Under the pieces are notes generated by a model. The model had not been told where the DNA came from and made no database searches. It saw only the letters and a program-made list of their open reading frames with translations. A DNA stretch of 22,621 nt, from assembly GCA_016190205.1 (NCBI GenBank), contig JACPQZ010000034.1:1-22621 (forward strand), given 5' to 3'. The DNA is from Candidatus Omnitrophota bacterium. GTDB taxonomy: Bacteria; Omnitrophota; JACPQZ01. The translations under genes were made by a program, and so were the position numbers. Below, one piece after another: positions 5,611 through 22,420 of this stretch. Numbering within the stretch: the stretch's first letter is position 1; each line of letters starts with the position of its first letter.

Positions 5611-6036
5611 ATGGCACGTGCACGGCATGAACGGGTGACGGAATCGGTTCGCAAAGAAGTAAGCGAGCTTCTTCAGCATGAGGTCAAGGACGTACGCATC
5701 GGGTTTACGACCGTAACGCGCGTCGAAATGTCCGAGGACTTAAGGCACGCCATTGTCTTTTGCAGCATCCTGGGGACGGACAAGGAAAAGCGCGATTCCA
5801 TGGTGGGTCTTAACCGGGCCAAGGGTTTTATGCGGCGCGAGATTGGGCGCCGTTTGAAACTTCGGTTTACCCCCGACATTCACTTTCGGCTGGACACTGC
5901 CCTGGACCACAGTTTCCATGTCGAAGAGGTCCTTAGAAAAATAAAGAGCGAGGACGGAGGAGCCGGGGGAGGAGAGATGAGGGACGAAGGACGTGGGACG
6001 TTGGACGTGGGACGTGAGAGGAAGGGTGAAGGATGA
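5611..6036 (+). CDS. rbfA: ribosome-binding factor A
   Basis: RbfA is a KH-like protein that binds the 30S subunit and assists late 16S rRNA maturation. The family hallmarks are visible: RxxRVxESVRKEVSELL at the N-terminus (residues 5-21), VRIGFTTVTRVEMSEDL (28-44), a FCSILG strand, and KGFMRREIGRRLKLRFTPDIHFRLD (71-95). The core ends near residue 112. The remaining tail, about 28 residues rich in Gly, Glu, Asp and Arg, is encoded by a low-complexity stretch including an array of 7-base units, and is probably not part of the fold. The stop overlaps the next start as ATGA, so translation of the downstream DHH gene is likely coupled. Confidence 0.93.
   Translation: MARARHERVTESVRKEVSELLQHEVKDVRIGFTTVTRVEMSEDLRHAIVFCSILGTDKEKRDSMVGLNRAKGFMRREIGRRLKLRFTPDIHFRLDTALDHSFHVEEVLRKIKSEDGGAGGGEMRDEGRGTLDVGRERKGEG
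5982..6016 (+). repeat. heptanucleotide array inside rbfA (GGACGNN x5)
   Basis: Five consecutive 7-base units, GGACGAA, GGACGTG, GGACGTT, GGACGTG, GGACGTG, followed by two degenerate units to 6030. They encode residues about 124-135 of RbfA, beyond its conserved core. The degenerate end contains AGAGGAA (6017-6023), 9 bases before the next start codon, so the array may also provide its ribosome binding site. Confidence 0.8.
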
Positions 6037-7004
6037 GCCGGCCGCTGGATGAGATCTGCCGCCTGATCCGGCGCAGCAGGAGCTTTGCCATCACCTCTCA
6101 TATTGCGCCGGACGGAGACGGGGTGGGGAGCATGTTTTCCATGGCGGCACTCCTCAAAGGGTTGGGAAAGAAGGTCACCGTTGTATGCGACGACGCGATG
6201 CCGGAGCGTTACCGCTTTTTGGGCAAGACCTGGGTCCGGACGAAGGACGCGGGTTCTCTTAAGCCTGACTGCATGATCACCATGGAATGTCCGGTCCTGA
6301 CAAGGGTGGGGCACACGATCAAGATCTTCCGGCGCGCCAAATATACCATTAATATCGATCATCATCCCGGAAACGACGAGTACGCCACCGTGAATTGGGT
6401 CAACGTGGGCGCAGCGGCCACGGGCGAAATGATCTACGAACTTTTCAAGAAGATGCACTACCCCCTGGACCAGGAAACGGCGAGGCTCATCTATATTTCC
6501 ATCTTGACGGATACCGGCTCGTTCCGCTATGCGAACACCACGCGCAGGACGCATGCCATCGCGGGGGAGCTTATCCAGTACGGTGTTCAGCCTGACCGCC
6601 TGATGGACGAGATCTACGAATCCAACACATACCGCGGGATGCGCCTTCTGGGGAGGGCGCTTTCCACTCTTCGGCGGAGCCCCGATAAAGAGATTGCGTG
6701 GCTCGCGGTCACGTCTCGAATGCTCAAGGAAAGCTGCGCCAAAAGCGAGGACGCCGATGGGTTTGTCAATTTTGCCCGAAACTTACGCGGCACCAAGGTG
6801 GCGTGCTTCTTTCTCGAAAACAATAACGGTGAAGTCAAGGTGAGCCTTAGGTCCAAGAGGTCTATTGATGTCAATCAAGTGGCGGCGGCCTTCGGGGGCG
6901 GGGGTCACAAGGCCGCGAGCGGCTGCCAGGTGAAGGGGCGCCTTGCGGCGGTTGAGAAGGAAGTAATCGCCAAGATTCGAATGGGGCTTGATGATGCACG
7001 TTAG
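6033..7004 (+). CDS. nrnA: DHH/DHHA1 phosphoesterase, NrnA-like
   Basis: A 323-residue DHH-family phosphoesterase; relatives in this position degrade short RNA oligonucleotides and 3'-phosphoadenosine 5'-phosphate. Motif I is SHIAPDGDG (H23, D27, D29), motif III is NIDHH (D109, H110, H111), motif IV is LTDTGSFRY (D160), and the DHHA1 substrate-binding domain ends in GGGGHKAASG (288-297). Motif II normally carries a metal-binding Asp in a D-C-P context; here it reads MECP, placing Glu85 there. Length matches the family. It overlaps rbfA by 4 bases and truB by about 11 and is part of the conserved rbfA-DHH-truB-ribF order. Substrate not proven: NrnA activity is assigned by family and neighbourhood. 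Confidence 0.87.
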   Translation: MSRPLDEICRLIRRSRSFAITSHIAPDGDGVGSMFSMAALLKGLGKKVTVVCDDAMPERYRFLGKTWVRTKDAGSLKPDCMITMECPVLTRVGHTIKIFRRAKYTINIDHHPGNDEYATVNWVNVGAAATGEMIYELFKKMHYPLDQETARLIYISILTDTGSFRYANTTRRTHAIAGELIQYGVQPDRLMDEIYESNTYRGMRLLGRALSTLRRSPDKEIAWLAVTSRMLKESCAKSEDADGFVNFARNLRGTKVACFFLENNNGEVKVSLRSKRSIDVNQVAAAFGGGGHKAASGCQVKGRLAAVEKEVIAKIRMGLDDAR

Positions 7005-7695
7005 TATGGATGGAATCTTGATCGTGGACAAACCCCAGGGCCGCACGAGCCATGACGTGGTGGATTTTGTCCGCCGCCGTTTTTCCATTCGCAAGGTGGG
7101 GCATGCCGGGACCCTGGACCCCCTGGCCACAGGCGTATTGGTAGTCCTTTTGGGTCAGGCCACCAAGCAGGCGCGGCGCTTTATGAATGACGATAAGGAA
7201 TATGATGCCACGCTCCGGCTGGGGATCACGACGGACTCCGGCGACGCCTGGGGAAAGGTGCTTTCGACCCGGGAACCCATCCAGGTTGAGAGCGGGCGGA
7301 TCGAGCAGGTCTTCCAGGAGTTTCGGGGCGAGATCCTTCAAATCCCGCCTATGGTCTCCGCGCTGAAATACAAGGGGAGGCGTCTGTACAAGCTCGCCCG
7401 CGAGGGCAAGGTGGTTCCCCGCCTGCCGCGCCGGGTGACCCTGCATGAGCTTGCCATTACCGAGATCCGTCTTCCCTGGATCGATTTTCATTTGACGTCC
7501 TCCAAGGGCACCTATGTCCGGACCCTCTGCCACGACATCGGAGAGCGCCTGGGCTGCGGGGCGCACATGTCGCGCCTGATGCGCGTGCGCAGCGGGGGCT
7601 TTCGTTTGTCTGACGGCGTCACGATACCTGAACTGGAACGGATGGGGGTGCGGGAACTCGCGGGCCGCATACGCATTGTTCAGGAGATCGCATGA
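6994..7695 (+). CDS. truB: tRNA pseudouridine(55) synthase
   Basis: TruB isomerises U55 in the T-loop of tRNAs. The N-terminus has GILIVDKPQGRTSHDVV and the catalytic block GHAGTLDPLATG, with the nucleophilic Asp at about residue 42. Other family blocks follow: YDATLRLGITTDSGD, IPPMVSALKYKGRRLYKLAREG and the strand before GTYVRTLCHDIGERLG. At about 233 residues it is the short bacterial form with no obvious C-terminal PUA domain. The start is uncertain: ATG at 6994 has GGGG 7 bases upstream, ATG 6991 and TTG 6988 are possible, and ATG 7006 lies just after the DHH stop and gives the most typical N-terminus. It overlaps ribF by 4 bases. Confidence 0.92.
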   Translation: MHVSMDGILIVDKPQGRTSHDVVDFVRRRFSIRKVGHAGTLDPLATGVLVVLLGQATKQARRFMNDDKEYDATLRLGITTDSGDAWGKVLSTREPIQVESGRIEQVFQEFRGEILQIPPMVSALKYKGRRLYKLAREGKVVPRLPRRVTLHELAITEIRLPWIDFHLTSSKGTYVRTLCHDIGERLGCGAHMSRLMRVRSGGFRLSDGVTIPELERMGVRELAGRIRIVQEIA

Positions 7696-8624
7696 AGGTT
7701 GTGACCCGCCCGTCCCAGCTTCCCAAGCGGCCGCGGATCCTTGCCATCGGCACCTTTGACGGGGTGCACGTCGGCCATCAAAAGATATTGGCGGCGCTCG
7801 TCCGGCGCGCCCGGCGCGAACGGGCGTCGAGCGTGGTCCTGACATTTCCCAATCACCCGCAGATGGTCCTGAAGCCTCGAAGGCCCATGCCGATGCTTTT
7901 GAGTCTCGCGCTCAAGGTCGATCTCATCCGGGAGCAGGGGGTGGACTACTGTTATCTGGCCGACTTTAACCGCCGGTTTTATTCCCAAGAGGCCGATGCG
8001 TTCGTACGGGGTTTCGTCTTGGGTAAGCTCGGCGTGCGGCATCTGGTCGTCGGATATGATTTTAAATTCGGAAAAGGAAGGGGAGGGGATGTGGAGCTCT
8101 TGAAGCGGCTCTCCCGCGAGCGGGGTTTTGGTGTGACGATCGTGCCTCCCGTGCGCAGGGACGGCGGCGTAGTGAGCAGTACCCGCATCCGGGGGCTCAT
8201 TGAGCGCGGTGATCTTACGGGGGCGTCGCGGCTTTTGGGCAGGCCCTACCGCATCGCCGGTAAGGTGGTCCGGGGGGCTCACCGAGGGGGGCTCACGGGG
8301 TATCATACGGCCAATGTGGTCTTGGAAGGGGGTCAGGCCCCTGCCGTGGGTGTATATGCCGCCCGGGTCCGTATAGGTCTCAAGGAATCTGGGGGTATGG
8401 TGAATGTAGGTTTTAGACCCACGTTTGTGCCGCGCCGTCTGCGCCCCCACGATCCCACCGTGGAAGTCCACGTTTTTGATCTTGACCGGAATTTATATGG
8501 TAATCGTATCGAAGTGGAGCTTTTGAAACGCATCCGGGGGGAGCACCGCTTCCCCACCGCGGAGGCCCTTCGCCGCCAGCTTAACCACGATGAGCAGGCG
8601 GCCCGTCAGATCTGCTCGAATTAG
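7692..8624 (+). CDS. ribF: bifunctional riboflavin kinase / FAD synthetase
   Basis: RibF phosphorylates riboflavin to FMN and adenylates FMN to FAD. The N-terminal nucleotidyltransferase domain shows GTFDGVHVGH (residues 20-29), GYDFKFGKGR (121-130) and SSTRIR (162-167). The C-terminal flavokinase domain shows the TAN motif (206-208), NVGFRPTF (238-245) and the catalytic-type Glu in VEVHVFD (258). Length of 310 is normal. ATG overlaps the truB stop as ATGA, indicating coupled translation. The TAG stop codon is itself the first three bases of a 197-base palindromic element that lies between this gene and rpsO. Confidence 0.94.
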   Translation: MKVVTRPSQLPKRPRILAIGTFDGVHVGHQKILAALVRRARRERASSVVLTFPNHPQMVLKPRRPMPMLLSLALKVDLIREQGVDYCYLADFNRRFYSQEADAFVRGFVLGKLGVRHLVVGYDFKFGKGRGGDVELLKRLSRERGFGVTIVPPVRRDGGVVSSTRIRGLIERGDLTGASRLLGRPYRIAGKVVRGAHRGGLTGYHTANVVLEGGQAPAVGVYAARVRIGLKESGGMVNVGFRPTFVPRRLRPHDPTVEVHVFDLDRNLYGNRIEVELLKRIRGEHRFPTAEALRRQLNHDEQAARQICSN

Positions 8625-8818
8625 AGGCTATGCCGAACCCCCCTTTCTACTGCAATCGCTGCTTTTGGCCTGCGCCTTTGCGCCGTTCGGCTTGCGTACC
8701 GCTGCGGGTACGCTGCGCCTCACGCCGCTGCGGCTCTCCGCAAAAAGCGGATCCGCCTCTGGCGGAGGCTGCAAAATCAGCGATTTCGCTACGAAACGGG
8801 GGTTCGGCATAGCCTCTA
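8622..8818. repeat. mosaic palindromic element, copy 1
   Basis: Outer arms 8622-8647 and 8793-8818 are inverted copies matching at 25 of 26 bases. Further in, the sequence around AATCGCTG (left) pairs imperfectly with its partner (right), making a stem of about 50 bases. The interior holds smaller hairpins: CGTAC/GTACG (8695-8712), TCCGC/GCGGA and CCGCC/GGCGG around a GGATCC centre. A 31-base core at 8745-8775 is identical to 22461-22491. Start includes the ribF stop codon. Near-mirror short open frames on both strands are side effects of the symmetry. There is no T-run, so it is not a standard terminator, though the transcript could block RNase or polymerase. Confidence 0.85.
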
Positions 8819-8910
8819 GCCGATGTAACCTTTTTCACTTTACTAAGTTACAAATTCGTGTTACTCTAGGTACTTTAGAAAATAGACATAACTTTCACAA
8901 GAGAACGCAC

Positions 8911-8916
8911 AAGGAG
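8911..8916 (+). promoter_or_regulatory. ribosome binding site deciding the TTG start of rpsO
   Basis: AAGGAG lies 8 bases before TTG at 8925. No ATG or GTG in frame gives a full-length S15, so this site supports TTG initiation. The A/T-rich 100 bases between the palindrome and this site probably carry an rpsO promoter, but no convincing pair of boxes can be picked out. Confidence 0.75.
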
Positions 8917-8924
8917 CGCGTTGG

Positions 8925-9194
8925 TTGAGCGTCGACAAGGTTAAGAAGGCCGAGATCATGAGACGGTATCAGGTCCACGAAAAGGATACCGGCTCATCCA
9001 AGGTTCAGATTGCGCTATTAACGGAGCGCATCAATGATCTTACGGACCACTTCAAATTACACAAAAAGGACCATCACTCCAGGCGAGGGCTCTTGCGCCT
9101 CGTCGGTCAGAGGAGACGGCACCTGGATTACCTGAAGCTTACGAACTCGGCCGCCTACCAGGCGGTAGTTGAAGAGCTCAACCTCAGAAAATAA
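8925..9194 (+). CDS. rpsO: 30S ribosomal protein S15
   Basis: S15 binds the central domain of 16S rRNA early in small-subunit assembly. The 89-residue length and the sequence are typical: [55 protein letters not shown] is spread over residues 10-65 with the conserved DTGSSxVQxALLT and HHSRRGLL blocks, then LDYLK and a C-terminal Arg-Lys. Initiation is at TTG behind a strong Shine-Dalgarno sequence. It lies 2 bases before pnp, the common rpsO-pnp pairing. In other bacteria S15 represses its own leader; the 106-base leader here is long enough for that but I cannot see a known S15-binding fold. Confidence 0.96.
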
Positions 9195-9196
9195 GC

Positions 9197-11641
9197 ATGA
9201 CAACTAGACTGAAGTGTGTGTGGGGGGGGAGAGAACTTGTATTTGAAACAGGGAAGGTGGCCAAGCAGGCAGACGGCTCGGTAACCGTTCAGTACGGCGG
9301 TTCCATGGTGCTGTCCACGGTGGTGGTCGCACCCGAACCTAAGGCAGAAGTCGATTTCCTGCCCTTGACGTGTGAGTATCAGGAGAAGACCTATTCCGCC
9401 GGGAAGATTCCCGGCGGTTTTTTTAAGAGGGAGGGCCGTCCGTCCGAGAAGGCCACGTTAAGCTCGCGCCTGATCGACCGGCCCATCCGGCCGCTTTTCC
9501 CAAAGGGCTGGGCGAATGAGGTGCAGGTCGTCTCCCTCGTGCTTTCGGCTGACGGGGAGAACGATACCGACGTCCTGGCGATGATCGGGTCGTTCTGCGC
9601 CCTCGGACTATCTTCCATTCCGCTCAAACAGCAACTCGCGGCCGTGCGGGTAGGTTTGATCGACGGCCAGTATGTCCTCAACCCCACGTTTAAGCAATTG
9701 GAAACGAGCAGGCTCAATGTGGTGCTGGCCGCGAGCCGTGACCGGGTGATGATGGTCGAGGCCGGCGCGCGCGAGGCGAGCGAGGAAGAGACGCTTGCCG
9801 CGATCGACTTCGGCCAGAAGGCCATCCGGGAGATCATCGATCTTGCGGAAGAGCTGGTCACAAAGGCCGGCAAGCCCAAAAAGGAATATCCTCTGCTGAA
9901 GACCCCTGATGGCCTTGAGGAAAAAGTGCGCGGTCTGGCCACAGAAAGAATCGATGCCTTAAACCGTAATGCCTCGGGCAAAAACTCGCGTGAAGAGGAG
10001 ATGACGGCCCTCCGGAAATCGCTCATTGATGAGCTCGTGGTGGATGAGGGGCCGGTCAGCGAAACACACGTGAAATCAGCCCTGGCCGCGGTTGAGAAAG
10101 AGCTGGTCAACCGGATGATCCTTCGAGAGAAGCGGCGCGCGGATGGACGGTCGCCTAAGACCATCCGCCCCATCACTTGTGAAGTGGGGCTTCTCCCCAG
10201 GGCGCATGGTTCATCCCTCTTTACACGGGGCCAGACACAGAGTCTTGCCGCAACGACCCTGGGCGGCAGCGACGACGAGCAGACAGTCGACGCCATCGAG
10301 GGAGAAAGCTACAAGCGCTTCATGCTGCACTATAACTTTCCATCCTTCAGCGTCGGAGAGGTGCGGCCGATACGCGGGCCCGGCAGGCGGGAGATCGGAC
10401 ACGGCGCCCTGGCTGAAAGGGCCCTGGCCCCTGTCATGCCGCCGGAGCTGGAATTCCCCTATGTGGTCCGCCTGGTGTCGGACATCCTCGAGTCGAACGG
10501 CTCGAGCAGTATGGCAACGGTTTGTGCGGGCTCTTTGGCCCTCATGGATGCAGGGGTTCCCATCAAGGCGGCCGTCTCGGGGATAGCCATGGGTCTCGTC
10601 ATGAATGAGGCCGCGCATGTGGTGCTCACGGACATAGCCGGGCTCGAGGATCACCTGGGCGACATGGACTTTAAGGTGGCAGGGACGGAGCAGGGGATCA
10701 CCGCCCTCCAAATGGATATTAAGATCGGCGGGGTCACGCAAGATGTGCTCAAAGAGGTCTTCGGCCAGGCACGGGAGGCCCGTCTGGAAATTCTTCAGGC
10801 GATGAACGGGGTCCTTTCGAAAGCGCGCGCTGAACTTTCTCCACTCGCCCCGCGCATTGTCCAGCTTACGATCGATCCCGAAAAGATCGGCGCTGTGATT
10901 GGTCCGGGCGGGAAGATGATCCGCCGGATCAGTGAGGAGACCGGCTGTGAGATCAACATCGAGGACAGCGGCGTGGTGCAGGTGCTCTCAACGGACGCTG
11001 ACGCCTCGGTCAAGGCGGTGGATTGGATCAAGTCGATCGTCGCCGAGCCGGAGATCGGAATGGTTTACGAAGGGCGCGTCTCCCGCATGATGAAGTTCGG
11101 GGCTTTTGCGGAGTTCATGCACGGCAAGGAGGGGCTCATTCACGTATCGGAGCTTGCAGAAAACCGCGTGGAGCGTCCGGAAGACGTGGTGAGGGTGGGC
11201 GATGCGGTCAAGGTCAAAGTCATTGAAATCGACGAGCAGGGGCGCATCAATTTAAGCCGCAAGCAGGCCATGACCCCGGAGGAGCTCAAGCAGGATACCC
11301 AGGCCCGCGCACAGGCGGGACCCCGTCCCCCCATGCCGCCGCAAAGAGACTCTTTCAGGGGGCGTCCTCATCGGCGCGATGAGAGGCCCCGCGGCCGTGA
11401 CTTTGGCCGTGGCCGGGACCAGGACCGAGGCAGAGATCAAGGCCGTGGCCAGGGCCAGGACCGTGGCAGTGATCAAGACCGTGGCCGGGACCAGGACAGA
11501 GGCAGTGATCAAGACCGTGGCCGGGATCAAGACCAAGGCCAGGATCCCAACCGGGAAGGGGGAGAGGGTCCTCCCAGGAGGGATCATGACAGGCGTCCGT
11601 TCCGGGACCGGGATTCAGGGTTTCGCGGCCGCCGGTATTAG
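9197..11641 (+). CDS. pnp: polyribonucleotide nucleotidyltransferase (PNPase)
   Basis: PNPase degrades RNA 3' to 5' using phosphate, as a trimer in the degradosome. Two RNase PH-like domains are present: the first with GGFFKREGRPSEKATLSSR (about 73-91) and RPIRPLFP, the second with LFTRGQTQSLAATTLG (341-356), HYNFPSFSVGE and GHGALAERAL (401-410). A KH domain (about 553-615, GPGGKMIRRISEETG) and an S1 domain (619-688) follow. Beyond residue 690 is an unusual tail of about 125 residues rich in Arg, Gly, Asp and Gln, including eight six-residue repeats at about 738-785 and ending in FRGRRY. The core is of normal length, so this tail explains the extra length. It probably binds RNA or protein through charge; that is inference. 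Confidence 0.96.
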   Translation: MTTRLKCVWGGRELVFETGKVAKQADGSVTVQYGGSMVLSTVVVAPEPKAEVDFLPLTCEYQEKTYSAGKIPGGFFKREGRPSEKATLSSRLIDRPIRPLFPKGWANEVQVVSLVLSADGENDTDVLAMIGSFCALGLSSIPLKQQLAAVRVGLIDGQYVLNPTFKQLETSRLNVVLAASRDRVMMVEAGAREASEEETLAAIDFGQKAIREIIDLAEELVTKAGKPKKEYPLLKTPDGLEEKVRGLATERIDALNRNASGKNSREEEMTALRKSLIDELVVDEGPVSETHVKSALAAVEKELVNRMILREKRRADGRSPKTIRPITCEVGLLPRAHGSSLFTRGQTQSLAATTLGGSDDEQTVDAIEGESYKRFMLHYNFPSFSVGEVRPIRGPGRREIGHGALAERALAPVMPPELEFPYVVRLVSDILESNGSSSMATVCAGSLALMDAGVPIKAAVSGIAMGLVMNEAAHVVLTDIAGLEDHLGDMDFKVAGTEQGITALQMDIKIGGVTQDVLKEVFGQAREARLEILQAMNGVLSKARAELSPLAPRIVQLTIDPEKIGAVIGPGGKMIRRISEETGCEINIEDSGVVQVLSTDADASVKAVDWIKSIVAEPEIGMVYEGRVSRMMKFGAFAEFMHGKEGLIHVSELAENRVERPEDVVRVGDAVKVKVIEIDEQGRINLSRKQAMTPEELKQDTQARAQAGPRPPMPPQRDSFRGRPHRRDERPRGRDFGRGRDQDRGRDQGRGQGQDRGSDQDRGRDQDRGSDQDRGRDQDQGQDPNREGGEGPPRRDHDRRPFRDRDSGFRGRRY
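11408..11551 (+). repeat. 18-base tandem repeat in pnp (8 units)
   Basis: Eight 18-base units, largely alternating between a CGTGGCCGGGACCAGGAC type and a GGCAGTGATCAAGAC type, which gives a 36-base higher-order period. They encode RGRDQD-like hexapeptides in the PNPase tail. Because 18 is a multiple of three, unit gain or loss keeps the frame, so copy number can vary without breaking the gene. Confidence 0.85.
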
Positions 11642-11660
11642 AAGTTGGGTAGCCGTGCCC

Positions 11661-11915
11661 GTGATTCGTGATTCGTGAAACGTAGCAGACGACTTGAGTA
11701 ACCAGAAACCAGTAACCAGATACCAGATAGATACCAGAGACCAGGTACCAGAACCATGCGTGTAGCAATTTGATCTTCAACTATCTACCCTTTATTGCCC
11801 TATTGTTGCAAATCCTTTGTTCTGGTTTCTGGTATCTGGTCTCTTCTGGTTACTGGCAACTGGTATCTGGTTTCTTTTTTTCACGATTCACGATTCACGA
11901 TTCACGATTCACGAA
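11661..11915. repeat. nested inverted heptanucleotide arrays between pnp and ftsK
   Basis: The 308-base gap 11642-11949 holds no gene. It contains four arrays of 7-base units arranged as a nested palindrome. Outer left 11661-11681 is three GTGATTC-type units; outer right 11881-11915 is five TCACGAT-type units. Inner left 11701-11753 is seven ACCAGNN units with a 4-base interruption; inner right 11820-11871 is seven NNCTGGT units with a 3-base interruption. Arm pairing is good: 17 of 19 bases in an outer segment and 18 of 21 in an inner one. The centre, 11754-11819, is AT-rich and featureless. The folded transcript may separate pnp and ftsK expression. It is not CRISPR: units are too short and lack spacers. 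Confidence 0.85.
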
Positions 11916-11939
11916 GAAGTGATTTTAGGATGCAGGGTG

Positions 11940-11946
11940 GGAGGAG
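11940..11946 (+). promoter_or_regulatory. strong ribosome binding site of ftsK
   Basis: GGAGGAG, with the GGAGG core 5 bases before the ATG at 11950. It is the best Shine-Dalgarno match in the window and supports 11950 over the GTG at 11953. No promoter boxes are evident between the repeat arrays and this site. Confidence 0.7.
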
Positions 11947-11949
11947 CCT

Positions 11950-14229
11950 ATGGTGCTTAAGGCTCAGCGTCGGAATGAACTTTGGGCGTGCGCCCTCCTC
12001 GCCGCCGCCTTGTTTCTGGCGATCAGTCTTTTAAGTTATGATGTCGGGGATACCGCCCTCCGATCCTCACCCGCCAATTCCCCAACCTTAAACCGCACCG
12101 GAGTCATCGGGGCGTACCTCTCTGAAATTCTCATCCTCTTCTTTGGAAAGAGCGCTTTTCTCGTTCCCCTTATTTTTTTTGTTTGGTCACTATCCCGGTT
12201 CCTGGGCGTCGTGCCTCCCAAGCTGGGTCTTAAGCTTTTCGGATTTTTCGTCCTCCTTTTTTCGGCCTCTGCGTGGACGGGAATCGGGAACCGGGAATCG
12301 GGTATCGTTGTACAGCAGGGGGGGGTGTGTGGACTCCTGCTTTCGTCCCTGCTCACCCCGTATTTCGGCATGCTGGGGTCACGCATCGTGGTGGGGGCCT
12401 TGCTGGCCCTATCCCTCCTTTTAGCCACTGAATTTTTGTTCGTTCCTTTCTTTCTCCGAGTCTGGAAACTTGTGGCGGGTTTGATCGCACACGTCAGGGA
12501 AGAGGATGAAGGCCGCCGGATCAAGCCTGTCCTTAAGATTGCGCGCAATGCACCCAGGATGAAGGGAAGGGAAGAGGCGCCTCCAGCAGAACCCCCCCGT
12601 CCCGCACGGCCCTTTGGACCGCTGCAGAGGCTTGAGAGGGAGAGGTCTTTTGCCAAACCCATCATCAAGCCGCCTGTGAAGGTGAGGCCGGCGCAAGCTG
12701 CAAGAAGGGAACCGGTGGAGCTCAAATCCCTGCCCGCCGAGGATAGGCCTGTTTTTACCACCCCGTCACCCGACATCCTCTCTGCTCCTCCCCAAGACGC
12801 TTCCGATGACCTGGCTGAGGACTTGGCCGAAAATTCGCGCGTCCTGGAGGGGACCTTGAGCGATTTCGGCATCGAGGCCCGGGTCGTGCAAGTGAACCAG
12901 GGCCCGGTGATCACGCGCTACGAGCTTTTGCCGGCTCCGGGGGTCAAGGTGGGGCGGATTACTGCGCTTACCGACGATATCGCCCTCGCCATGAAGGCGC
13001 AAAGCGTGCGGATTGTGGCCCCTATCCCGGGAAAGGCGGCGGTGGGCATCGAGGTTCCGAATATGAAGATGTCGCTCGTGTACCTTCAGGAGATCTTAAG
13101 GTCGGAGGCCTTTGCCAAGGTCGACTCGAAGCTCGCCATTGCCCTGGGGAAGGAAATTTCCGGAAGCCCTCTGGTGGCGGATCTTGCGGAGATGCCGCAC
13201 CTCATGATCGCCGGAACGACGGGGAGCGGCAAGACCGTGTGTGTCAATGCCATTATTGCGAGCATCCTTTTTAACGCGACGCCGGAGGATGTCCGCTTCA
13301 TCATGGTGGATCCCAAGATGGTTGAGCTCGTAGCGTTCAACAAACTGCCGCACTTGGCGTGTCCCGTGGTCACGGATGCGAAGAAGGTGGCGGCCGCTCT
13401 TTCCTGGGTGGTCCAGGAGATGGAAGACCGGTACCGGCTTCTCGCGAGCTCCGGGGTGCGCGATATTCAGTCCTATAACAGGAAGGGGCCGGAACGGAAA
13501 CTCCCTTATATCGTGGTCGTGATCGACGAATTGGCGGATCTTATGCTGGTAGCCGCTGACAAGATCGAGGGGGCGATCACGCGCCTGGCGCAACTCGCGC
13601 GTGCGGTGGGCATTCACATGGTGCTGGCGACCCAGCGGCCTTCTGTGGATGTCATCACAGGCGTCATCAAGGCCAATTTTCCAGCCCGCCTCTCGTTTAA
13701 GGTGGCCTCCAAGGTGGATTCGCGCACCGTCATGGATATGGGGGGCGCCGACAAGCTGCTGGGTAAGGGAGACCTTCTTTTCTTGAGGCCGGGTCAGTCC
13801 AAGCCTGTGCGCGGGCAGGGGGCCTTGGTGAGCGATGAGGAGATCGCTCGTCTCATTGAGTCTTATTCGAGCCAGGGCAAGACGCAGTACGAGGAAGCGC
13901 TCATGGAAAGGCTGAAGGACAAAGAGGGCGGGCGCGGCGAGACCGATCGGGACGAGCTCTTCGATGACGCAGTCCGGGTGATTCTGGATACGGGGCAGGC
14001 CTCCACCTCCATGCTTCAAAGGCGCCTCAAACTCGGGTATACCCGCGCGGCGCGCATTATCGATGAGATTGAGCAGGCTGGTTATATCGGGCCTTCCCGC
14101 GGGGCCAAGCCGAGGGATATCCTGATCAGCGATGTCCCTCCCGAAGGGGCTAAGGCCGCCCCTTTACTTAACCAAGGGGCAAATGAGAAGACCGATGAGA
14201 CCCTGCCGGTCACGGAGAAGAAAGGTTAG
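11950..14229 (+). CDS. ftsK: DNA translocase FtsK/SpoIIIE
   Basis: FtsK anchors at the division septum and pumps DNA during chromosome segregation. The N-terminus has about four membrane segments (roughly 11-30, 57-82, 92-109, 125-170). A Pro/Arg-rich linker (about 185-280) is shorter than in E. coli. The motor follows: an alpha domain (about 290-400), Walker A GTTGSGKT (422-429), Walker B IVVVIDELAD (521-530) and ATQRPSVDVITG. The C-terminal gamma winged-helix domain (668-727) has LQRRLKLGYTRAARIIDEIEQAGYIG split across the recognition helices, so it should read orienting DNA sites. A heptanucleotide array encodes part of a loop between membrane segments 3 and 4. It is followed 6 bases later by rimO. 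Confidence 0.95.
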   Translation: MVLKAQRRNELWACALLAAALFLAISLLSYDVGDTALRSSPANSPTLNRTGVIGAYLSEILILFFGKSAFLVPLIFFVWSLSRFLGVVPPKLGLKLFGFFVLLFSASAWTGIGNRESGIVVQQGGVCGLLLSSLLTPYFGMLGSRIVVGALLALSLLLATEFLFVPFFLRVWKLVAGLIAHVREEDEGRRIKPVLKIARNAPRMKGREEAPPAEPPRPARPFGPLQRLERERSFAKPIIKPPVKVRPAQAARREPVELKSLPAEDRPVFTTPSPDILSAPPQDASDDLAEDLAENSRVLEGTLSDFGIEARVVQVNQGPVITRYELLPAPGVKVGRITALTDDIALAMKAQSVRIVAPIPGKAAVGIEVPNMKMSLVYLQEILRSEAFAKVDSKLAIALGKEISGSPLVADLAEMPHLMIAGTTGSGKTVCVNAIIASILFNATPEDVRFIMVDPKMVELVAFNKLPHLACPVVTDAKKVAAALSWVVQEMEDRYRLLASSGVRDIQSYNRKGPERKLPYIVVVIDELADLMLVAADKIEGAITRLAQLARAVGIHMVLATQRPSVDVITGVIKANFPARLSFKVASKVDSRTVMDMGGADKLLGKGDLLFLRPGQSKPVRGQGALVSDEEIARLIESYSSQGKTQYEEALMERLKDKEGGRGETDRDELFDDAVRVILDTGQASTSMLQRRLKLGYTRAARIIDEIEQAGYIGPSRGAKPRDILISDVPPEGAKAAPLLNQGANEKTDETLPVTEKKG
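12278..12305 (+). repeat. heptanucleotide array inside ftsK (CGGGAAN x4)
   Basis: Four units, CGGGAAT, CGGGAAC, CGGGAAT and CGGGTAT, encoding about residues 110-119 (GIGNRESGI) in a loop between two predicted membrane segments. The unit is almost the same as the CGGGAAG array at 20921. The loop position would tolerate extra residues. Confidence 0.75.
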
Positions 14230-14235
14230 CTCGGC

Positions 14236-16181: not shown

Positions 16182-16602
16182 GGCGTTGGCAAGCTGTGGT
16201 CCGGTGGGCTACATCCCCATCGCCTCGGGGAGTGTGGCGAGCCTTATTGGCGTGGGGCTTTTTGCCGCCCTGGGGTCTTTTCCGGCGCTTTACGCGGAGG
16301 TCACTTTAGGGGTGGTGGTCTTGAGCTTTGCCGTGACCATGCGCGCCGAGGCCCTCTTCGGCGAGGATGATCCCCGCATCGTGCTGGATGAAGTGGCCGG
16401 TCAAATGGTTAGTCTTTTGTGGATACCGGTATCGGCGGGGTGGGCGACCTGGGGTTTCTTCCTCTTTCGGTTTTTCGATATCTTCAAACCCCCTCCCATC
16501 CGCTGGTTGGAAGAGCGCCTGGGCCCCGCCGGCGTGTGCGCCGACGACGTGGCGGCGGGGCTTTATACCCTCCTCATACTCCAACTAATCAAAATACTTT
16601 AG
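16165..16602 (+). CDS. pgpA: phosphatidylglycerophosphatase A
   Basis: PgpA removes the phosphate from phosphatidylglycerol phosphate, completing phosphatidylglycerol synthesis after PgsA. Family blocks are clear: GYIPIASGSVASLIG near the N-terminus, DDPRIVLDEVAGQMVSL with its acidic metal-binding residues, FRFFDIFKPPPIRWLEE, and GVCADDVAAGLY. Several membrane segments are present. I chose GTG at 16165 because GGAGAAG lies 7 bases upstream and the resulting 145 residues start like other PgpA proteins; a TTG at 16129 would add 12 residues of no family likeness. It converges on thpR. Confidence 0.9.
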   Translation: MQRLVKALASCGPVGYIPIASGSVASLIGVGLFAALGSFPALYAEVTLGVVVLSFAVTMRAEALFGEDDPRIVLDEVAGQMVSLLWIPVSAGWATWGFFLFRFFDIFKPPPIRWLEERLGPAGVCADDVAAGLYTLLILQLIKIL

Positions 16603-16628
16603 TACAGAGACGAGTTCGAGTCTGTCGT

Positions 16629-16698
16629 GTGTGTTGTGTGATGTGTGGTGAGACCCGGGAATCACTCACTACTCACCACTCACGACTCACGACTAACG
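16629..16698. repeat. inverted heptanucleotide arrays between pgpA and thpR
   Basis: Left arm 16629-16649 is GTGTGTT, GTGTGAT, GTGTGGT. Right arm 16664-16698 is five units of ACTCACN type ending in ACTAACG. GTGGTGAG (16645-16652) pairs perfectly with CTCACCAC (16672-16679) around a loop containing CCCGGG. The last right-arm unit provides the TAG stop of thpR on the minus strand. Between convergent genes, such a hairpin could act as a transcription block for both sides, though neither strand has a T-run. Confidence 0.75.
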
Positions 16699-17256
16699 AG
16701 CTAAAAGTGGAAACTGGTCCAGGGTTCTATAAACGGGCCCCTGGGGCGTGAGGGTGCTTTCGATGAGGCTTAAGGCGGTTACTGTCATAGAACCCTCCGC
16801 CGTGAGGGAAGGGGATTTGAGGGTTCTCACGAGCCGCGTGCGGTCCTTGATAAATCGGACGCGGCCCAGGGTGACGTGGGGGGTGAACGCGCGCTCCTCT
16901 TTTTGAAACCCCAGCAAGGCCAGGGCCTCCTCCAGTTTTTGAGCTATATCTTTTGCTGAATCCTGCCCCTTCTCTATTCCTACCCAAAGCACACGGGGGT
17001 TCTCCAGCTTCGGAAAGGCGCCGAGCGGCCCTAAGGTGAATTCGAAGGGGGACAAGCCTTCAGCCACTTCCCGGATAGCCCCTTTTAGGGCTTCCAGTTT
17101 TTCCTCCGCCGTTTCACCCAGGAAGCGGAGGGTGAGATGTATTTGACCGGGATTCACCCATTTGACCTGGCTGGGACTGCGCTTCAAAACTTCCTGGATG
17201 TGGGCGAGGGAAGCTTTTATTTCGTCGGCAAGTTCGATGGCGATAAAGAGTCTCAT
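16693..17256 (-). CDS. thpR: RNA 2',3'-cyclic phosphodiesterase
   Basis: ThpR (LigT-like, 2H phosphoesterase) opens 2',3'-cyclic phosphates on RNA; early members were found by a tRNA-half ligase activity. The two HxT motifs of the active site are H40-L-T42 (in HLTLRFLGE) and H127-V-T129 (in HVTLGRVRF). MRLFIAIEL is the standard N-terminus. I start at 17256 rather than at an upstream codon because that extension is a low-complexity reading of the cinA end. The ATG overlaps the cinA stop as ATGA, so cinA and thpR are coupled. Length of 187 is normal. Confidence 0.92.
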   Translation of the reverse strand: MRLFIAIELADEIKASLAHIQEVLKRSPSQVKWVNPGQIHLTLRFLGETAEEKLEALKGAIREVAEGLSPFEFTLGPLGAFPKLENPRVLWVGIEKGQDSAKDIAQKLEEALALLGFQKEERAFTPHVTLGRVRFIKDRTRLVRTLKSPSLTAEGSMTVTALSLIESTLTPQGPVYRTLDQFPLLAR

Positions 17257-18497
17257 TCGAGAAGCGCCCTGCGCACGAGGTTCAGGGCCGCCTGCACGCC
17301 CTTGTCCCTGATGTCTTTGCGCTCGCCCGAAAAGTGGTAACGTTCGCACAGGGCCCTGTTTTTGTGATCCAGGGCGATGTAGACGAGACCTACCGGTTTC
17401 GCTTTGGATCCTCCTGTAGGGCCTGCGATACCCGTCACGGCTAGTCCCAGGTCTGTGCCGGCGCTCTTACGCGCGCTCTTCGCCATAGCTTTTACTACAT
17501 CGGCGCTCACCGCGCCGTGGCGCACGAGGAGCCTTTTCGGTACTTTGAGCAGTCTTATTTTCTCCCTGTTGTCGTATGCGACGATAGAGGAGCGCAGGTA
17601 CCGTGAGCTTCCCGGGGTATCCGTGAGGCGGCTTGAAACCAGACCTCCTGTGCAGGATTCAGCAACTGCCAACGTGAGGCGCTTGCGCGCGAGCAGGCCC
17701 CCCACCACTTGTTCAAGAGGAGTGCCGTCGGCGCTGTAAAGGTGTGAACCCAGACGGCTCTTGATTTTTTTCTCGAAGGGGGCCATAAGCTTCACGGCAG
17801 CCTGTCTGGTACGCGCCTTGGCGGTGAGACGCAGGGTTACCGAGCCGGGGCAGGCGTAAATTCCGCAGGTGACTGCTCCGCCCATCGTGAGGAGGTCCTC
17901 CGCCCTTGCCTCAACCTGGGGCTCGGAAAGTCCAGTCACCAGAAAGTCCCGGCTTTCGATGACCCAGGGAAGGCGAAGGAGCCTCTTAAGTCTCTGGGCC
18001 GCATCCTCCATCATGGCCCTGGCCTCGGAGGGAACTCCGGGCAGGAGCACGACACAGTGTTTTTGGACCCGCACCAGTTGCCCGGGCGCAGACCCCACGC
18101 GATTGGGGAGTATCTCGGCGCCCTGAATGATCCGGGCCTGCCGCTTCATGGAGGGTATAATCTCAATTCCCCGAGCTCGAAAACGGCGCTCTATCTTGCT
18201 CCACGTGAAGGGATCAAAACGCCATGTGCGCTTGAGCCCAGCCGCTACCCCGTCAACGGTCACGTCGTCCAGGGTGGGCCCGAGCCCGCCGGTCACGACC
18301 ACCACATGCGCCCTCCGGAGGGCCGCTCGGACCGCGTGGGCAATACGACCTGTGTTATCGCCGACCACCACGTGCTTATAAACGTCCAACCCCAAGCCGG
18401 CCAGAATCCTCGACAAAAAAGAGGAGTTCGAGCTTACGGTGAAGCCCAGGAGGAGCTCAGTCCCGGCAGAGATAATTTCAGCTTGAACGTGCTTCAT
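17253..18497 (-). CDS. cinA: CinA-like protein: MoCF-fold domain plus nicotinamide-nucleotide amidohydrolase
   Basis: CinA proteins join an N-terminal MoCF-fold (COG1058) domain, linked to ADP-ribose pyrophosphatase activity in some members, to a C-terminal NMN deamidase domain of pyridine-nucleotide salvage. N-terminal marks are EIISAGTELLLG (7-18) and VVVVTGGLGPTLDDVT (65-80), then LPGVPSE (152-158). The C-terminal domain has AESCTGG (279-285, with the Ser in the active site) and VTGIAGPTGG (354-363). Reading could extend to 18575, but a perfect TATAAT on the minus strand (18553-18558) lies inside that extension, and the ATG at 18497 gives the typical start. In many bacteria cinA follows pgsA or pgpA in the same direction; here it faces them. 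Confidence 0.92.
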   Translation of the reverse strand: MKHVQAEIISAGTELLLGFTVSSNSSFLSRILAGLGLDVYKHVVVGDNTGRIAHAVRAALRRAHVVVVTGGLGPTLDDVTVDGVAAGLKRTWRFDPFTWSKIERRFRARGIEIIPSMKRQARIIQGAEILPNRVGSAPGQLVRVQKHCVVLLPGVPSEARAMMEDAAQRLKRLLRLPWVIESRDFLVTGLSEPQVEARAEDLLTMGGAVTCGIYACPGSVTLRLTAKARTRQAAVKLMAPFEKKIKSRLGSHLYSADGTPLEQVVGGLLARKRLTLAVAESCTGGLVSSRLTDTPGSSRYLRSSIVAYDNREKIRLLKVPKRLLVRHGAVSADVVKAMAKSARKSAGTDLGLAVTGIAGPTGGSKAKPVGLVYIALDHKNRALCERYHFSGERKDIRDKGVQAALNLVRRALLE

Positions 18498-18552
18498 GGT
18501 GGTGGGGCGAAGTATGCATATGGCACTTTTACCCGTGTGAATCTTGACACAC

Positions 18553-18582
18553 ATTATAATCCCAATCGATTTCAAATGTTAT
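18553..18582 (-). promoter_or_regulatory. promoter of cinA-thpR
   Basis: On the minus strand, TATAAT (18558-18553) is preceded 18 bases upstream by ATAACA (18582-18577), a four-of-six match to the -35 consensus. Transcription would begin near 18546 and give a leader of about 50 bases to the cinA ATG at 18497. It is back-to-back with the + strand promoter. Confidence 0.5.
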
Positions 18583-18585
18583 AAT
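18577..18585 (+). promoter_or_regulatory. extended -10 promoter pointing to the lyase gene
   Basis: TGTTATAAT is a perfect extended -10 element, which does not need a strong -35 box. Transcription would start near 18592, so the transcript meets a strong terminator some 20 bases later. Confidence 0.55.
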
Positions 18586-18610
18586 TGATGTAGACAGATG
18601 AAGTGCAACT

Positions 18611-18650
18611 ACCGCCCTTCTCCGGCTCAGCCGGAGAGGGCGGTTTTTTT
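18611..18650 (+). terminator. intrinsic terminator in the leader of the lyase gene
   Basis: ACCGCCC (18611-18617) pairs with GGGCGGT (18638-18644); inside, TCTCCGGC pairs with GCCGGAGA around a TCA loop with one unpaired T. Seven T follow from 18644. It works only on the + strand, since there is no A-run on its left. No + strand gene precedes it for 2 kb, so it either ends a small RNA of about 60 bases from the 18577 promoter or acts as an attenuator for the gene at 18675. Confidence 0.85.
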
Positions 18651-18674
18651 GCCCCAAAAGTTTAGGAATTTCAA

Positions 18675-20375
18675 ATGACGATTAAAATATTTTTTACCGT
18701 AAGAGATGTGGTTTTAGCAAGTCTCATGGTACTGATTCCTGTTGGCACTGCCTTGTCTTACGATGCAAAGCACCCCAACCTTTTCTTTAATCAAAGGGAA
18801 ATAAATGAGATCAAAGGAAAGATACGAGAGGGGCGCGAGCCCTGGGCGAGCCAGTTCTTGCGGCTTAAGGCATCCGAAGACGCTTACAGCGCTCCCCCCG
18901 ATGTGTATGATGGCCCCGAAGTTAAGGAGTGGCGCATGAAATTCGAGCTTCAAGATTCCGAACACGCCGCCCGCAACGCCCTTATTTATGTTCTTACGGA
19001 TGATGCGCGCTACGCGGAGCGCGCTAAGGAATTTCTCGTGGCGTGGGCTTCAGGATCGCTGAAACGTATCCAAGACTACAGCCATTTCGAAGAAACAAAT
19101 CGGCGTGCACGCGTAGACGCGGCCCTGCGCTTGAGCCTGGGCTTTCGCAATTTTAGCAATGCCTACGACCTCATTTATAATAATAGCCACGTACTTTCCC
19201 TTCAAGATCATGTGCTTATTCAAAGCTGGCTCCGAAGAGGCTATCACTTGATTAAACAGGGAACCCTGTATTGGCCTCAACACGTGAATAGGTGCCATTC
19301 AGTTTCGAACCATGTTACAGCACATCTTGCAGGACTTTCAGCTATAGGTTTTGTCTTGGATGACTACGAGCTTGCTTTGGAAGCCATTGAGGGAAGGAAC
19401 ATACCCAGAAATTGGAAGACAGCTATGGAACAGGCGATATATGTAAGCGGGGAACGCTCCTCGGGGTGCGACTCGGGTCGCAGACCTGTGACGAACGTCG
19501 GTGAAGTGTTTGATCGCTACCGTCATTATGACGTCCCCGGCGCTGATCCCTGGAGCGATGCAAACCGAGGATACGGCTATTCGGTTCTTTCCGCAGCAAA
19601 CCTTGCAGCCACCGCGGAGGCGGCCTATCACCACGGCATTGATCTTTACCATTACGTGGCGCCAAGAGGCGAACAGTTGCTTTTGCCGGGTATTTATTAT
19701 TCCTGTTTCCGGCAAAAGTTTGCGGGCGGGAGACACCTCATCCAGGCGACAGGTTGTCGAGGCGAGGGCGGATACGTGAACGAGGTGATGAAAGATGGAT
19801 ATATCAACTTTTTCGATATCTTGGCGTACCGATTGCATCATGACTCTCGCGTTACACGGGCCTTCGATAACCTGCCCGATGCTGCACGGCGGTTCCAACC
19901 GCCCGAGTTTTTTGGGAAGATGTTTGACAGGAAGGAGATTGCTTGGAATTTTCATCTCGATGGCATCATGGAAGGTTGGTTCGTTCGTCCGAATGGACAT
20001 GTGATAAATGCACGAGTAAGAGACGGCGCGTTGTCATGTGACGTTGTGGGAGGAGATCCCATGCTGGAGGCGCATCGTTTGTCGCTTAACACTGATTTAT
20101 ATTCCGTATTGAAAGTGCGTATGAAGCTCGACGACGGCGTGAACGATGGTCACGCAGTCCCTATCCAGGTATTTTGGATTGAAAGTGGAGGAGGTGCGTA
20201 CAGTAATGAAAAGAAGGCTTGGACAAAAGGGAGCGTAGATGGCATTTATCGTATCTATCAGATTGATCTTAAAAGCTGTCCAGAGTGGAAAGGAACAATA
20301 GAGAAACTGCGCTTTGATCCTGTCACCCATGCCGGTGTTTCTGTGTCAATCGATTCGATCACTTTGCAGTATTAG
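18675..20375 (+). CDS. secreted alginate-lyase-like polysaccharide lyase with C-terminal beta-sandwich
   Basis: A 566-residue protein with signal peptide (about 1-29) and an (alpha/alpha) toroid like the alginate lyase and heparinase superfamily. HPNLFFNQREINEIKGKI (33-50) and NALIYVLTDDARYAERAKEFLVAWA (101-125, read in parts) are typical. Candidate catalytic residues by analogy with PL5 are N212 and H213 in SNHVTAH, and R298 with Y302 in RGYGYS. From about 424 a beta-sandwich begins with WNFHLDGIMEGW and ends near VSIDSITLQ, resembling carbohydrate-associated modules. It should cut uronate-containing polysaccharide in the periplasm or outside, but the substrate is unknown. AGGA lies 7 bases before the ATG. 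It looks unrelated to the housekeeping genes nearby; the DNA seems less GC-rich than its neighbours. Confidence 0.8.
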   Translation: MTIKIFFTVRDVVLASLMVLIPVGTALSYDAKHPNLFFNQREINEIKGKIREGREPWASQFLRLKASEDAYSAPPDVYDGPEVKEWRMKFELQDSEHAARNALIYVLTDDARYAERAKEFLVAWASGSLKRIQDYSHFEETNRRARVDAALRLSLGFRNFSNAYDLIYNNSHVLSLQDHVLIQSWLRRGYHLIKQGTLYWPQHVNRCHSVSNHVTAHLAGLSAIGFVLDDYELALEAIEGRNIPRNWKTAMEQAIYVSGERSSGCDSGRRPVTNVGEVFDRYRHYDVPGADPWSDANRGYGYSVLSAANLAATAEAAYHHGIDLYHYVAPRGEQLLLPGIYYSCFRQKFAGGRHLIQATGCRGEGGYVNEVMKDGYINFFDILAYRLHHDSRVTRAFDNLPDAARRFQPPEFFGKMFDRKEIAWNFHLDGIMEGWFVRPNGHVINARVRDGALSCDVVGGDPMLEAHRLSLNTDLYSVLKVRMKLDDGVNDGHAVPIQVFWIESGGGAYSNEKKAWTKGSVDGIYRIYQIDLKSCPEWKGTIEKLRFDPVTHAGVSVSIDSITLQY

Positions 20376-20417
20376 AGGGGGATACACGAATTCTCCTGCC
20401 CCTTTGTATGTCCCCCT
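20376..20417 (+). terminator. hairpin after the lyase gene, weak terminator
   Basis: AGGGGGATACA (20376-20386) pairs with TGTA-TCCCCCT (20405-20417, two unpaired bases). Only three T follow, so it is a weak terminator at best. The stop TAG immediately precedes it, the same TAGAGG junction seen at both palindromic elements. Confidence 0.45.
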
Positions 20418-20430
20418 TTCGAAAATTAGA

Positions 20431-20459
20431 TTGACATACTTATTATTGTAGAGTAGTAT
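20431..20459 (+). promoter_or_regulatory. sigma70-type promoter of the 648-residue protein
   Basis: TTGACA (20431-20436, perfect -35) and TAGTAT (20454-20459) with the ideal 17-base spacer. Transcription from about 20466 leaves only about 8 bases before the ATG at 20474 and no Shine-Dalgarno sequence. It is the strongest promoter match in the window. Confidence 0.7.
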
Positions 20460-20473
20460 TAGTAGCACATCCC

Positions 20474-22420
20474 ATGCTACTCTTAAAGAAGAAGTTTAGA
20501 GCCCTAGTTCTTGTCCTCTCATTTCTTAATATCGCACTACCTGCCGAGGCTCTCTCTGCTTTTTCCGCCGATCGGGAATATCTAGCCACAGAGTCGCGGT
20601 ATCATGCCGATCGACATTTCCTAGAAGTCAACTCGATGGCCGGTACGCTCCTTATGCTTCACCAGAAGCTGTATGATACTCTGGGCCGGCCGGTTCGTGT
20701 CCATGAAATTTCCGCTGACATCAGAACGCTTCTTGTGAGTGATCGCTGGGCGGGCGCCGTCATTCGGCCCGTTCAGGGTGACGGGATCGCGGTGCAGTTT
20801 GCTAACGAACCCCACGAATGGGTCGTCGCCCCGGCTGGAAGCGACGCGAGCGCTGTCCAAACCCTGGGGCCTTTTAAGGTTGGCGGGGGAGAGGTGGTTA
20901 TTTATGCAAGGCCGGTTGGTCGGGAAGCGGGAAGCGGGAAGCGGGAAGCGGGGGCAGACGCGAGCGTGGCCCAGGTACCGGAGGGGGATGGGTTAAGCAG
21001 GGGGCCGGCCCAAAACTGGGACGAGTTGGCTGACCGGACAGTGGAATACTACAGTGATTTGGTGGCTGGCACACGTACAGGTCTTCCTACTAACCCGGAG
21101 CTAAAGTTCGGCACAAGGGATGTGGCCGTGGGTGAGGCTGTAAATTATTTTAACAATTATCCTGAAAGGTCCGTCTTCGCACTGACGCTGCAAAAGGTAA
21201 TACGCACCATGCGCCCCGTCGATTTGACGAACGCCACTGCCCCATCGATACTCGCACGTCTGGCACGTGAAGTGAAGAAGCGCGATTTTCCCCGTTGGGC
21301 GCATGACGACTATGACCAACAGTACAAACCTTTCCTCCGTACCTGGTCCCAGCACGACGACCACACCCTGGCGCAAGGAGATGGAATTTCGGCCGAGGAG
21401 TTAAAGAGTGGTCTGAATGGGGCAGTCCAGAGGTTCGTCGCGTATGCAGATGAGCTGCTGGAAGAGCACGGGAGGGGCTCGGAGTTTGGAAAGGAAGTTT
21501 CTAGGGCCAGGGAGAGAGTTTCAAGAATTGTTAACGATGCGTCTTCCGGGGGGCTGGATATTGGGCGTCTGACCGAGGCCTATAATGAGGTCAGGCGTTT
21601 GTACGGGACCATTCAATCCAAAGAAATTGATATATCCAGATCCGGAAAGGTGGAACAGAGGGGGCAGGACGCGCGCCCCGCGACACAAGCGAAGCGGTCT
21701 AAGCCCAGCGGGGAACGTGGGCCGAGCAACTCGTGGGACAATGCGGTGCGGACTTGGGAAGACGGTGGGAACCCGTCGGGCGATGGCGTCTTGGCTGACT
21801 TGCGAGGGGAGTTGTCTCAAGATATGCGCGAAACAACTTACTCGAGTTTGAAAAGCGTTATCGCAGAATCCCGCGCTCAAGGGCTCAAAAGTGTTGAGCT
21901 CGCGCGGCGCATTGTGGCTGCGGGCCGTGAGTCTGATTCGGGGTTCGGAACCGCAGGCCAGGTGCTGACTACGGAGGTCGTCGTCCCGGTCGGAGAAGAA
22001 GCCATCCGCGCCGTGCAGGGTATTTTCGGAGGCCAATCGCCGCGCTGGGTGAGGCTGGTCGCCGTTGCTGATTCCGAGCTTCACCGGGGTCAATTGGCCC
22101 GGTTCCCGGGGGAGACAATCGTGCGCAGTCCGGCCGTCATTCGGAACGGGAAGATTACCGCCCAGAGTCTCGAGCACTCGGCCCGCGGGGCCATCCAGAT
22201 GCCGGAGGGACCGGTCCACATCATCCCGGTCTTTGGCTCGGACTCCCTGGAGTATATGGCGGCCCATACGGATGATCCCTCTGCCATGCAAGTCCAAGAT
22301 TTCATGCGGTACATCAGGAACTCCCTTGAAGAGATCATGACCCACCGGGTCACCGATAACCCCGAAGATATCCAGCTTATTTACCGCGCCGCTGCCCTCT
22401 TCCTCGACCTTTCCGCCTAG
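20474..22420 (+). CDS. exported protein of unknown family (648 aa)
   Basis: I do not recognise the family. A lysine-led hydrophobic signal peptide (about 1-28, ending near PAEALS) points to export. Residues about 50-150 look like a compact alpha/beta domain (VHEISADIRTLL, GAVIRPVQGDGIAVQF). A low-complexity insert at about 150-160 (GREAGSGKREAGA) is encoded by a heptanucleotide array. A long charged helical region (180-385) and a polar linker (385-440) lead to a C-terminal region (about 500-648) with strands VRLVAVAD, PVHIIPVFGSD and terminal helices ending FLDLSA. No catalytic motif stands out. The gene has its own promoter. Base composition and secreted design resemble the paralog pair at the other end, but I see no alignable homology with them. 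Confidence 0.8.
   Translation: MLLLKKKFRALVLVLSFLNIALPAEALSAFSADREYLATESRYHADRHFLEVNSMAGTLLMLHQKLYDTLGRPVRVHEISADIRTLLVSDRWAGAVIRPVQGDGIAVQFANEPHEWVVAPAGSDASAVQTLGPFKVGGGEVVIYARPVGREAGSGKREAGADASVAQVPEGDGLSRGPAQNWDELADRTVEYYSDLVAGTRTGLPTNPELKFGTRDVAVGEAVNYFNNYPERSVFALTLQKVIRTMRPVDLTNATAPSILARLAREVKKRDFPRWAHDDYDQQYKPFLRTWSQHDDHTLAQGDGISAEELKSGLNGAVQRFVAYADELLEEHGRGSEFGKEVSRARERVSRIVNDASSGGLDIGRLTEAYNEVRRLYGTIQSKEIDISRSGKVEQRGQDARPATQAKRSKPSGERGPSNSWDNAVRTWEDGGNPSGDGVLADLRGELSQDMRETTYSSLKSVIAESRAQGLKSVELARRIVAAGRESDSGFGTAGQVLTTEVVVPVGEEAIRAVQGIFGGQSPRWVRLVAVADSELHRGQLARFPGETIVRSPAVIRNGKITAQSLEHSARGAIQMPEGPVHIIPVFGSDSLEYMAAHTDDPSAMQVQDFMRYIRNSLEEIMTHRVTDNPEDIQLIYRAAALFLDLSA
20921..20948 (+). repeat. 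heptanucleotide array inside the 648-aa gene (CGGGAAG x4)
   Basis: Four perfect CGGGAAG units and a degenerate fifth, coding for part of a Gly/Arg/Glu-rich linker between two domains. The unit differs by one base from the ftsK array at 12278. Perfect units suggest recent growth or homogenisation. Confidence 0.8.

Follow-up and report, generated by a model that had tools for sequence, protein, structure and literature searches.

Genes and heptad arrays of the window

The window, by which we mean the whole stretch of 22,621 nucleotides analysed here, is contig 23 of a metagenome assembly (1.65 Mb, 92.8% complete, 76 contigs) from the phylum Candidatus Omnitrophota. Its genes are ordinary: rbfA, a DHH phosphoesterase, truB, ribF, pnp, ftsK, a rimO-like gene, pgsA, pgpA, a LigT-like gene, cinA, an alginate-lyase-like gene and genes for three long unassigned proteins. 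Two long proteins of 804 and 795 amino acids (44-2458 and 2652-5039) have no Pfam match, and both partly match repeats elsewhere in the sampled genome or each other. Neither Rfam matches nor tRNA genes were found in the window. The following features, with arrays delimited by Tandem Repeats Finder, consist of 7-nt units:

5969..6019, plus strand: purine-rich lead-in followed by a GGACGNN array, in the 3' tail of rbfA (gene 5611-6036), past the RBFA domain, which ends at amino acid 108 of 141 (5981-6016 in Tandem Repeats Finder)
11652..11917, no strand assigned: palindromic element, dispersed in the genome and composed of nested heptad arrays, in the spacer from pnp (PNPase) to ftsK, 266 bp, with 44 self-matches in the sampled genome
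11660..11678, plus strand: CGTGATT array, left outer arm of the pnp-ftsK element
11697..11756, plus strand: ACCAGNN array, left inner arm, with four cores, a 4-nt register shift and three more cores (11701-11756 in Tandem Repeats Finder)
11820..11875, minus strand: NNCTGGT array (TTCTGGT), right inner arm, the inverted form of ACCAGNN
11880..11914, minus strand: five TTCACGA units, right outer arm, the inverted form of CGTGAAT
12278..12307, plus strand: CGGGAAN array of exactly four units followed by CG, in the part of ftsK that encodes a loop of the N-terminal membrane region
16628..16647, plus strand: TGTGTGA array, apparent inverted partner of the ACTCACN array at 16664..16699
16664..16699, plus strand: ACTCACN array, essentially intergenic: it occupies the spacer that separates pgpA from the convergent LigT-like gene and just touches the 3' edge of the latter
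20921..20952, plus strand: (CGGGAAG)x4 followed by CGGG, inside a 648-aa gene (20474-22420) of no assigned family

A first-pass annotation of this DNA had reported a 7-base period at six sites. Tandem Repeats Finder returned period 7 at all six, and three more arrays were detected. The GTGATTC (11661) and ACCAGNN (11701) repeats had been listed as separate; their period held, but together with the arrays at 11820 and 11880 they form one palindromic element, in which the CGTGATT and ACCAGNN arrays (11660-11756) face their inverted counterparts (11820-11914) across a loop. The three arrays described as lying in frame are indeed within open frames (the rbfA tail, ftsK and the 648-aa protein), but since 7 is not a multiple of 3, this means only that the reading frame stays open. 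The combination of lead-in and GGACGNN array seen in rbfA was found again at other loci.

The window also contains repeats of other kinds. Between ribF and an rpsO-like gene (8622-8818) lies another dispersed palindromic repeat, which has no heptads, has the ends GAGGCTATGCCGAAC...GTTCGGCATAGCCTC and shows four self-matches in the sample. At 11407-11539, a 36-bp (2 x 18) tandem repeat codes for the Arg/Asp/Gly-rich C-terminal tail of PNPase; its period, unlike that of the heptads, is a multiple of 3.

Period and unit number across the genome

The genome was sampled as stretches totalling 664 kb (about 40% of the total), some of which were picked for a match. Periods were scanned as exact lag-p runs of at least 12 matches, with order-3 Markov shuffles as the control. 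In the first set (399 kb), lag 7 gave 75 arrays, every other period from 2 to 13 gave 0 or 1, and the shuffles gave none; lags 14, 21 and 28, as multiples of 7, were set apart. The contigs of this set had been picked for a CGGGAAG match, and therefore 255 kb of the same genome was also scanned with no selection. This second set contained 26 arrays at period 7 and at most 3 at every other non-multiple. Likewise, CG dinucleotides spaced by 7 nt formed 142 chains of at least five, against 2-8 chains at spacings of 5, 6 and 8-11. The arrays belong to many unit families within the one genome, including CGGGAAN, ACCAGNN, CGTGANT, CGTACNG, CGTNCTT, CGATNAC, CAGCGAC, AGCTNTC, GGACGNN and others. The first-pass annotation had named a genome-wide excess of period 7 over 5, 6, 8 and 9 as the observation that would support it; the excess is present in both sets, and we confirm it as real and stronger than that annotation had put it.

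The arrays are also uniform in size, at about 30 bp. When one detector was applied to all periods in the pooled stretches of the phylum, 221 of 479 arrays at period 7 had four units, the modal number, while periods 5, 6, 8 and 9 showed no four-unit peak. The peak was present in each of the rich genomes taken singly (31/58 in G056, 15/43 in G016 and 10/13 in G031). In our genome, ACCAG arrays had three cores 25 times, four cores 41 times and five cores once, and closed CG modules of 2, 3, 4, 5 and 6 units numbered 40, 26, 69, 20 and 2.

Heptameric repeats are known from Xanthomonas (GGGAATC) and Nostoc (GGGGA(C/T)T), and the four-unit mode in Xanthomonas has been ascribed to G-quadruplexes (Rehm et al. 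2015, PMC4692102). Selection for this structure might fix the number four here as well, as (CGGGAAG)4 has four G3 tracts. However, only the CGGGAAG family has four such tracts, most arrays are free of G3 and C3 tracts, and the four-unit mode was also found in arrays that lack them (107/208). G-quadruplex selection is thus contradicted as a general cause and is a very improbable source of the four-unit rule, although it could still act on the CGGGAAG family.

Position, pairing and dispersal of the arrays

Placement and partners were counted for 200 arrays in the sample; one further call, on a masked contig, was left out. By our simple, home-made gene models, on which the coding and intergenic calls are based, 162 of the 200 were intergenic, against 87% of the sample being coding, and the coding arrays were mostly near gene ends. 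Compared with solved homologues, the gene for the folate enzyme HPPK (L016:18606-19241) has about 26 extra codons near the N-terminus that consist wholly of heptad arrays, and carA has about 24 extra codons made of heptads. Dihydrolipoyl dehydrogenase has 6 extra codons. The arrays of ftsK, phosphomannomutase and kdsB bring no net gain in length relative to homologues, a pattern more in keeping with replacement or later compensation than with simple insertion. The genes that carry arrays are housekeeping genes (ftsK, HPPK, carA, pgk); phase-variation (contingency) repeats switch surface genes through a variable copy number.

It is conceivable that each module is a selected site, either bound by a protein that contacts four heptads or acting in the transcript as a hairpin or terminator. 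The fixed unit number, the intergenic placement, the long hairpins into which inverted pairs fold and the enrichment in co-directional spacers (2.9 arrays per kb, against 1.0 in convergent and 1.6 in divergent spacers, the last being few) are in its favor. However, one genome holds dozens of unrelated units, arrays lie within ftsK, HPPK, CarA and other housekeeping genes, and they are sparse in convergent spacers, where terminators would lie. The lack of an Rfam match in the window and the absence of the pnp-ftsK element from the orthologous site in another genome (G056) also count against selection, which we regard as quite improbable. We saw no sign of function in the arrays; their positions in spacers, gene ends, linkers and loops fit tolerated elements.

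Inverted pairing is common. An inverted partner lay within 300 bp of 97 of the 200 arrays, compared with 27 in a control with exchanged neighbourhoods, while direct partners were at the control level (45 versus 34). Terminal inverted repeats, as expected of MITEs, were present only in the ACCAG composite.

The arrays are also dispersed. The CGGGAAG arrays match 20 further places in the genome, usually as exact 30-mers. Of 16 such arrays in the sample, 14 had at least four units, nearly all followed by CG, and their flanks were unrelated; no target-site duplication was seen by eye in these flanks. In ACCAG arrays, the three variable slots were linked across loci: 44 pairs were identical, whereas 2000 shuffles gave 20 on average and never more than 39. 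Clean gaps between dispersed copies were 7 nt long 30 times, 6 nt 8 times, 8 nt 10 times and 9 nt 9 times, and most longer sizes occurred about once at most. The dispersed CGGGAAG arrays, the linked ACCAG slots and the 7-nt gaps together indicate that whole arrays travel and that heptads are gained and lost singly. However, 7-nt indels inside heptad arrays are expected whatever sets the period, and they do not account for the step of 7.

These observations bear on slippage of the replicative polymerase by 7 nt, the length that it grips, with each array arising locally and independently. This idea of Mrazek 2007, already cited in PMC4692102 and PMC4679880, is close to the first-pass annotation, and it explains both the exclusive period over unrelated units and the 7-nt indels. 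Local births should nevertheless yield random units, whereas a few units are found tens of times between unrelated flanks, and separate loci have ACCAG slot combinations in common. Neither the sharp fall beyond four units nor the scarcity of arrays in sister genomes, whose polymerases are presumably similar, would be expected from slippage. As the sole cause, it therefore seems unlikely.

Some further features of the arrays were examined. The T at the left end before CGGGAAG and CGTACNG arrays is real and is probably part of the copied module rather than a choice of target. A register kept between neighbouring different arrays was considered and rejected, as 5 of 14 were in phase (p 0.04) and the signal was gone for gaps of at least 3 nt. 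REP/REPIN elements are mobilised by RAYT, a Y1 transposase whose gene they flank. Our genome has four Y1_Tnp genes, and arrays occur near two of them, about what the general density gives and no clear enrichment. In another stretch (L015:40-240 and 3200-3430), a larger repeat surrounds a heptad module: its tandem copies measure about 81 bp, and every copy includes a CGTACNG array of four units.

Origin of the arrays and known heptameric repeats

Other Omnitrophota genomes, related to ours at the phylum level, were used for comparison. In one of them, G056, the gene order pnp-ftsK-rimO-pgsA-pgpA is kept, but the orthologous place has neither the pnp-ftsK element nor the array in ftsK, nor any other heptad array. 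G056, G016 and G035 themselves abound in period-7 arrays, whose units differ in part from ours. Among 40 other Omnitrophota genomes, sampled as unselected stretches, arrays were few except in G031. The first-pass annotation had proposed a comparison with related genomes for lineage specificity, and this specificity was borne out, many genomes of the phylum having few arrays. Eighty contigs of many phyla, retrieved through an ACCAG array, contained after masking 44 period-7 arrays of other units, while the periods 4-6 and 8-11 had 1 to 11 arrays each; because of this selection, they show only that heptads keep company.

The same comparison bears on descent with modification, in which one ancestral heptad family would have spread and diverged by point mutation and homogenisation, so that the period would be inherited and no length measured. 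Units in our genome are densely linked through single changes (at one mismatch they fall into 8 clusters, shuffled units into 11-26), and mixed arrays change by grades. On the other hand, so few 7-mers are possible that shuffling leaves the units almost as well connected, and in other Omnitrophota, as in other phyla, the units are quite unlike ours but also have period 7. Descent from one family is in our view distinctly unlikely.

We propose that the arrays are one genome-wide class of modules of about four heptads (about 30 bp) in dozens of units, produced by duplication in 7-nt steps and module dispersal acting together (probability about 0.5). The modules would sit alone or be paired in inverted orientation, giving imperfect hairpins. 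In one process, DNA would be duplicated in 7-nt steps, so that related copies would differ by whole heptads and some arrays would switch unit with the register intact. In the other, completed modules of about 30 bp, as well as palindromes composed of two modules, would be copied to new, mostly intergenic sites. This proposal draws on the observed period, size, inverted pairing, dispersal and unit-wise indels, and on the absence from the orthologous pnp-ftsK locus of another genome. Since rich genomes hold many unit families at once and other genomes of the phylum few, we infer that step and size are both set by a host process that acts on many sequences. As far as can be told from sequence, a host process and an unseen mobile element would fit alike. 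A broader version, in which an as yet undescribed, host-encoded process writes short arrays whose geometry is fixed (about 30 bp, in about four steps of 7 nt) while their sequence is free, in some Omnitrophota lineages, and perhaps in other phyla judging from the Xanthomonas data, is a long shot.

The first-pass annotation had suggested a mechanism that measures length, such as a polymerase or repair process, rather than the spread of one repeat family. The constant period agrees with the former; spread coexists with it, however, as CGGGAAG occurs at about 20 sites with unrelated flanks and ACCAGNN slots are linked. A length-measuring process remains plausible because step size and copy number are both fixed, and its polymerase version had been published before (Mrazek 2007, as cited in PMC4692102 and PMC4679880). 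The repair version is unsupported. MutS (PF00488) is missing in 94 of 145 Omnitrophota genomes, including ours, but its absence does not track heptad density: unselected stretches contained 9 strict arrays in 255 kb of genomes with MutS and 3 in 269 kb of genomes without it. As seven of the nine came from one genome, G031, the comparison says only that MutS does not predict heptads, and MutS loss was dropped as a cause. Repeats written by a reverse transcriptase (telomerase-like or DGR) were also rejected, as our genome, 92.8% complete, has no RVT_1 match.

Heptamer repeats rank, to our knowledge, with the most frequent long simple repeats of bacteria, and over decades no cause for them has gained acceptance. 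Where a genome has 7 as its near-sole period, dozens of units and a constant number of copies, G-quadruplexes (as a general explanation of the number four), MutS loss and reverse transcriptase drop out of the candidates. Seven times four is a clean regularity that any mechanism must reproduce.

Among known systems, the Xanthomonas GGGAATC and Nostoc GGGGA(C/T)T repeats (PMC4692102) are similar in period, dispersal, mostly intergenic location, modal four units and the occurrence of some inverted pairs, and the unit of our CGGGAAN family is nearly identical to theirs. Unlike them, our genome has dozens of units, most of which are unable to form G-quadruplexes; half of its arrays are inverted-paired, and its four-unit rule is independent of G tracts. 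The cyanobacterial STRR, as cited in PMC4692102, also comprise several unrelated 7-nt units per genome (three in Calothrix). They belong to another phylum, however, and our genome has more units, the size of about 30 bp and palindromic composites. The TAACTGA repeats of marine Beggiatoaceae (MacGregor 2015, PMC4679880) resemble our arrays in having two to six heptamer copies, in being intergenic and in their patchy distribution across phyla, but they are essentially one unit in Beggiatoaceae, against many here.

According to Mrazek 2007, as cited in PMC4692102 and PMC4679880, heptamers are the commonest long simple sequence repeats in many genomes, and the polymerase footprint was hypothesised as the reason. 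Compared with the long repeats described there, period 7 is almost the sole period in our genome and the copy number is fixed too. MITEs and REPIN/REP elements (for example BrickBuilt, a tandem repeat within a MITE, PMC4596501) are likewise short dispersed palindromes without genes, whereas the arms of our palindromes are heptad arrays, and neither target duplication nor a linked transposase was seen here. In our arrays, 7-nt units are in excess over other lengths, dispersed and mostly non-coding, as in the class of heptameric repeats (STRR or heptamer simple sequence repeats). The best reading is therefore that they represent this known bacterial class (STRR) in an extreme form. The new features of this case are that period 7 is nearly exclusive, that unit families are so numerous, that palindromic composites occur and that the four-unit rule extends to arrays unable to form G-quadruplexes.
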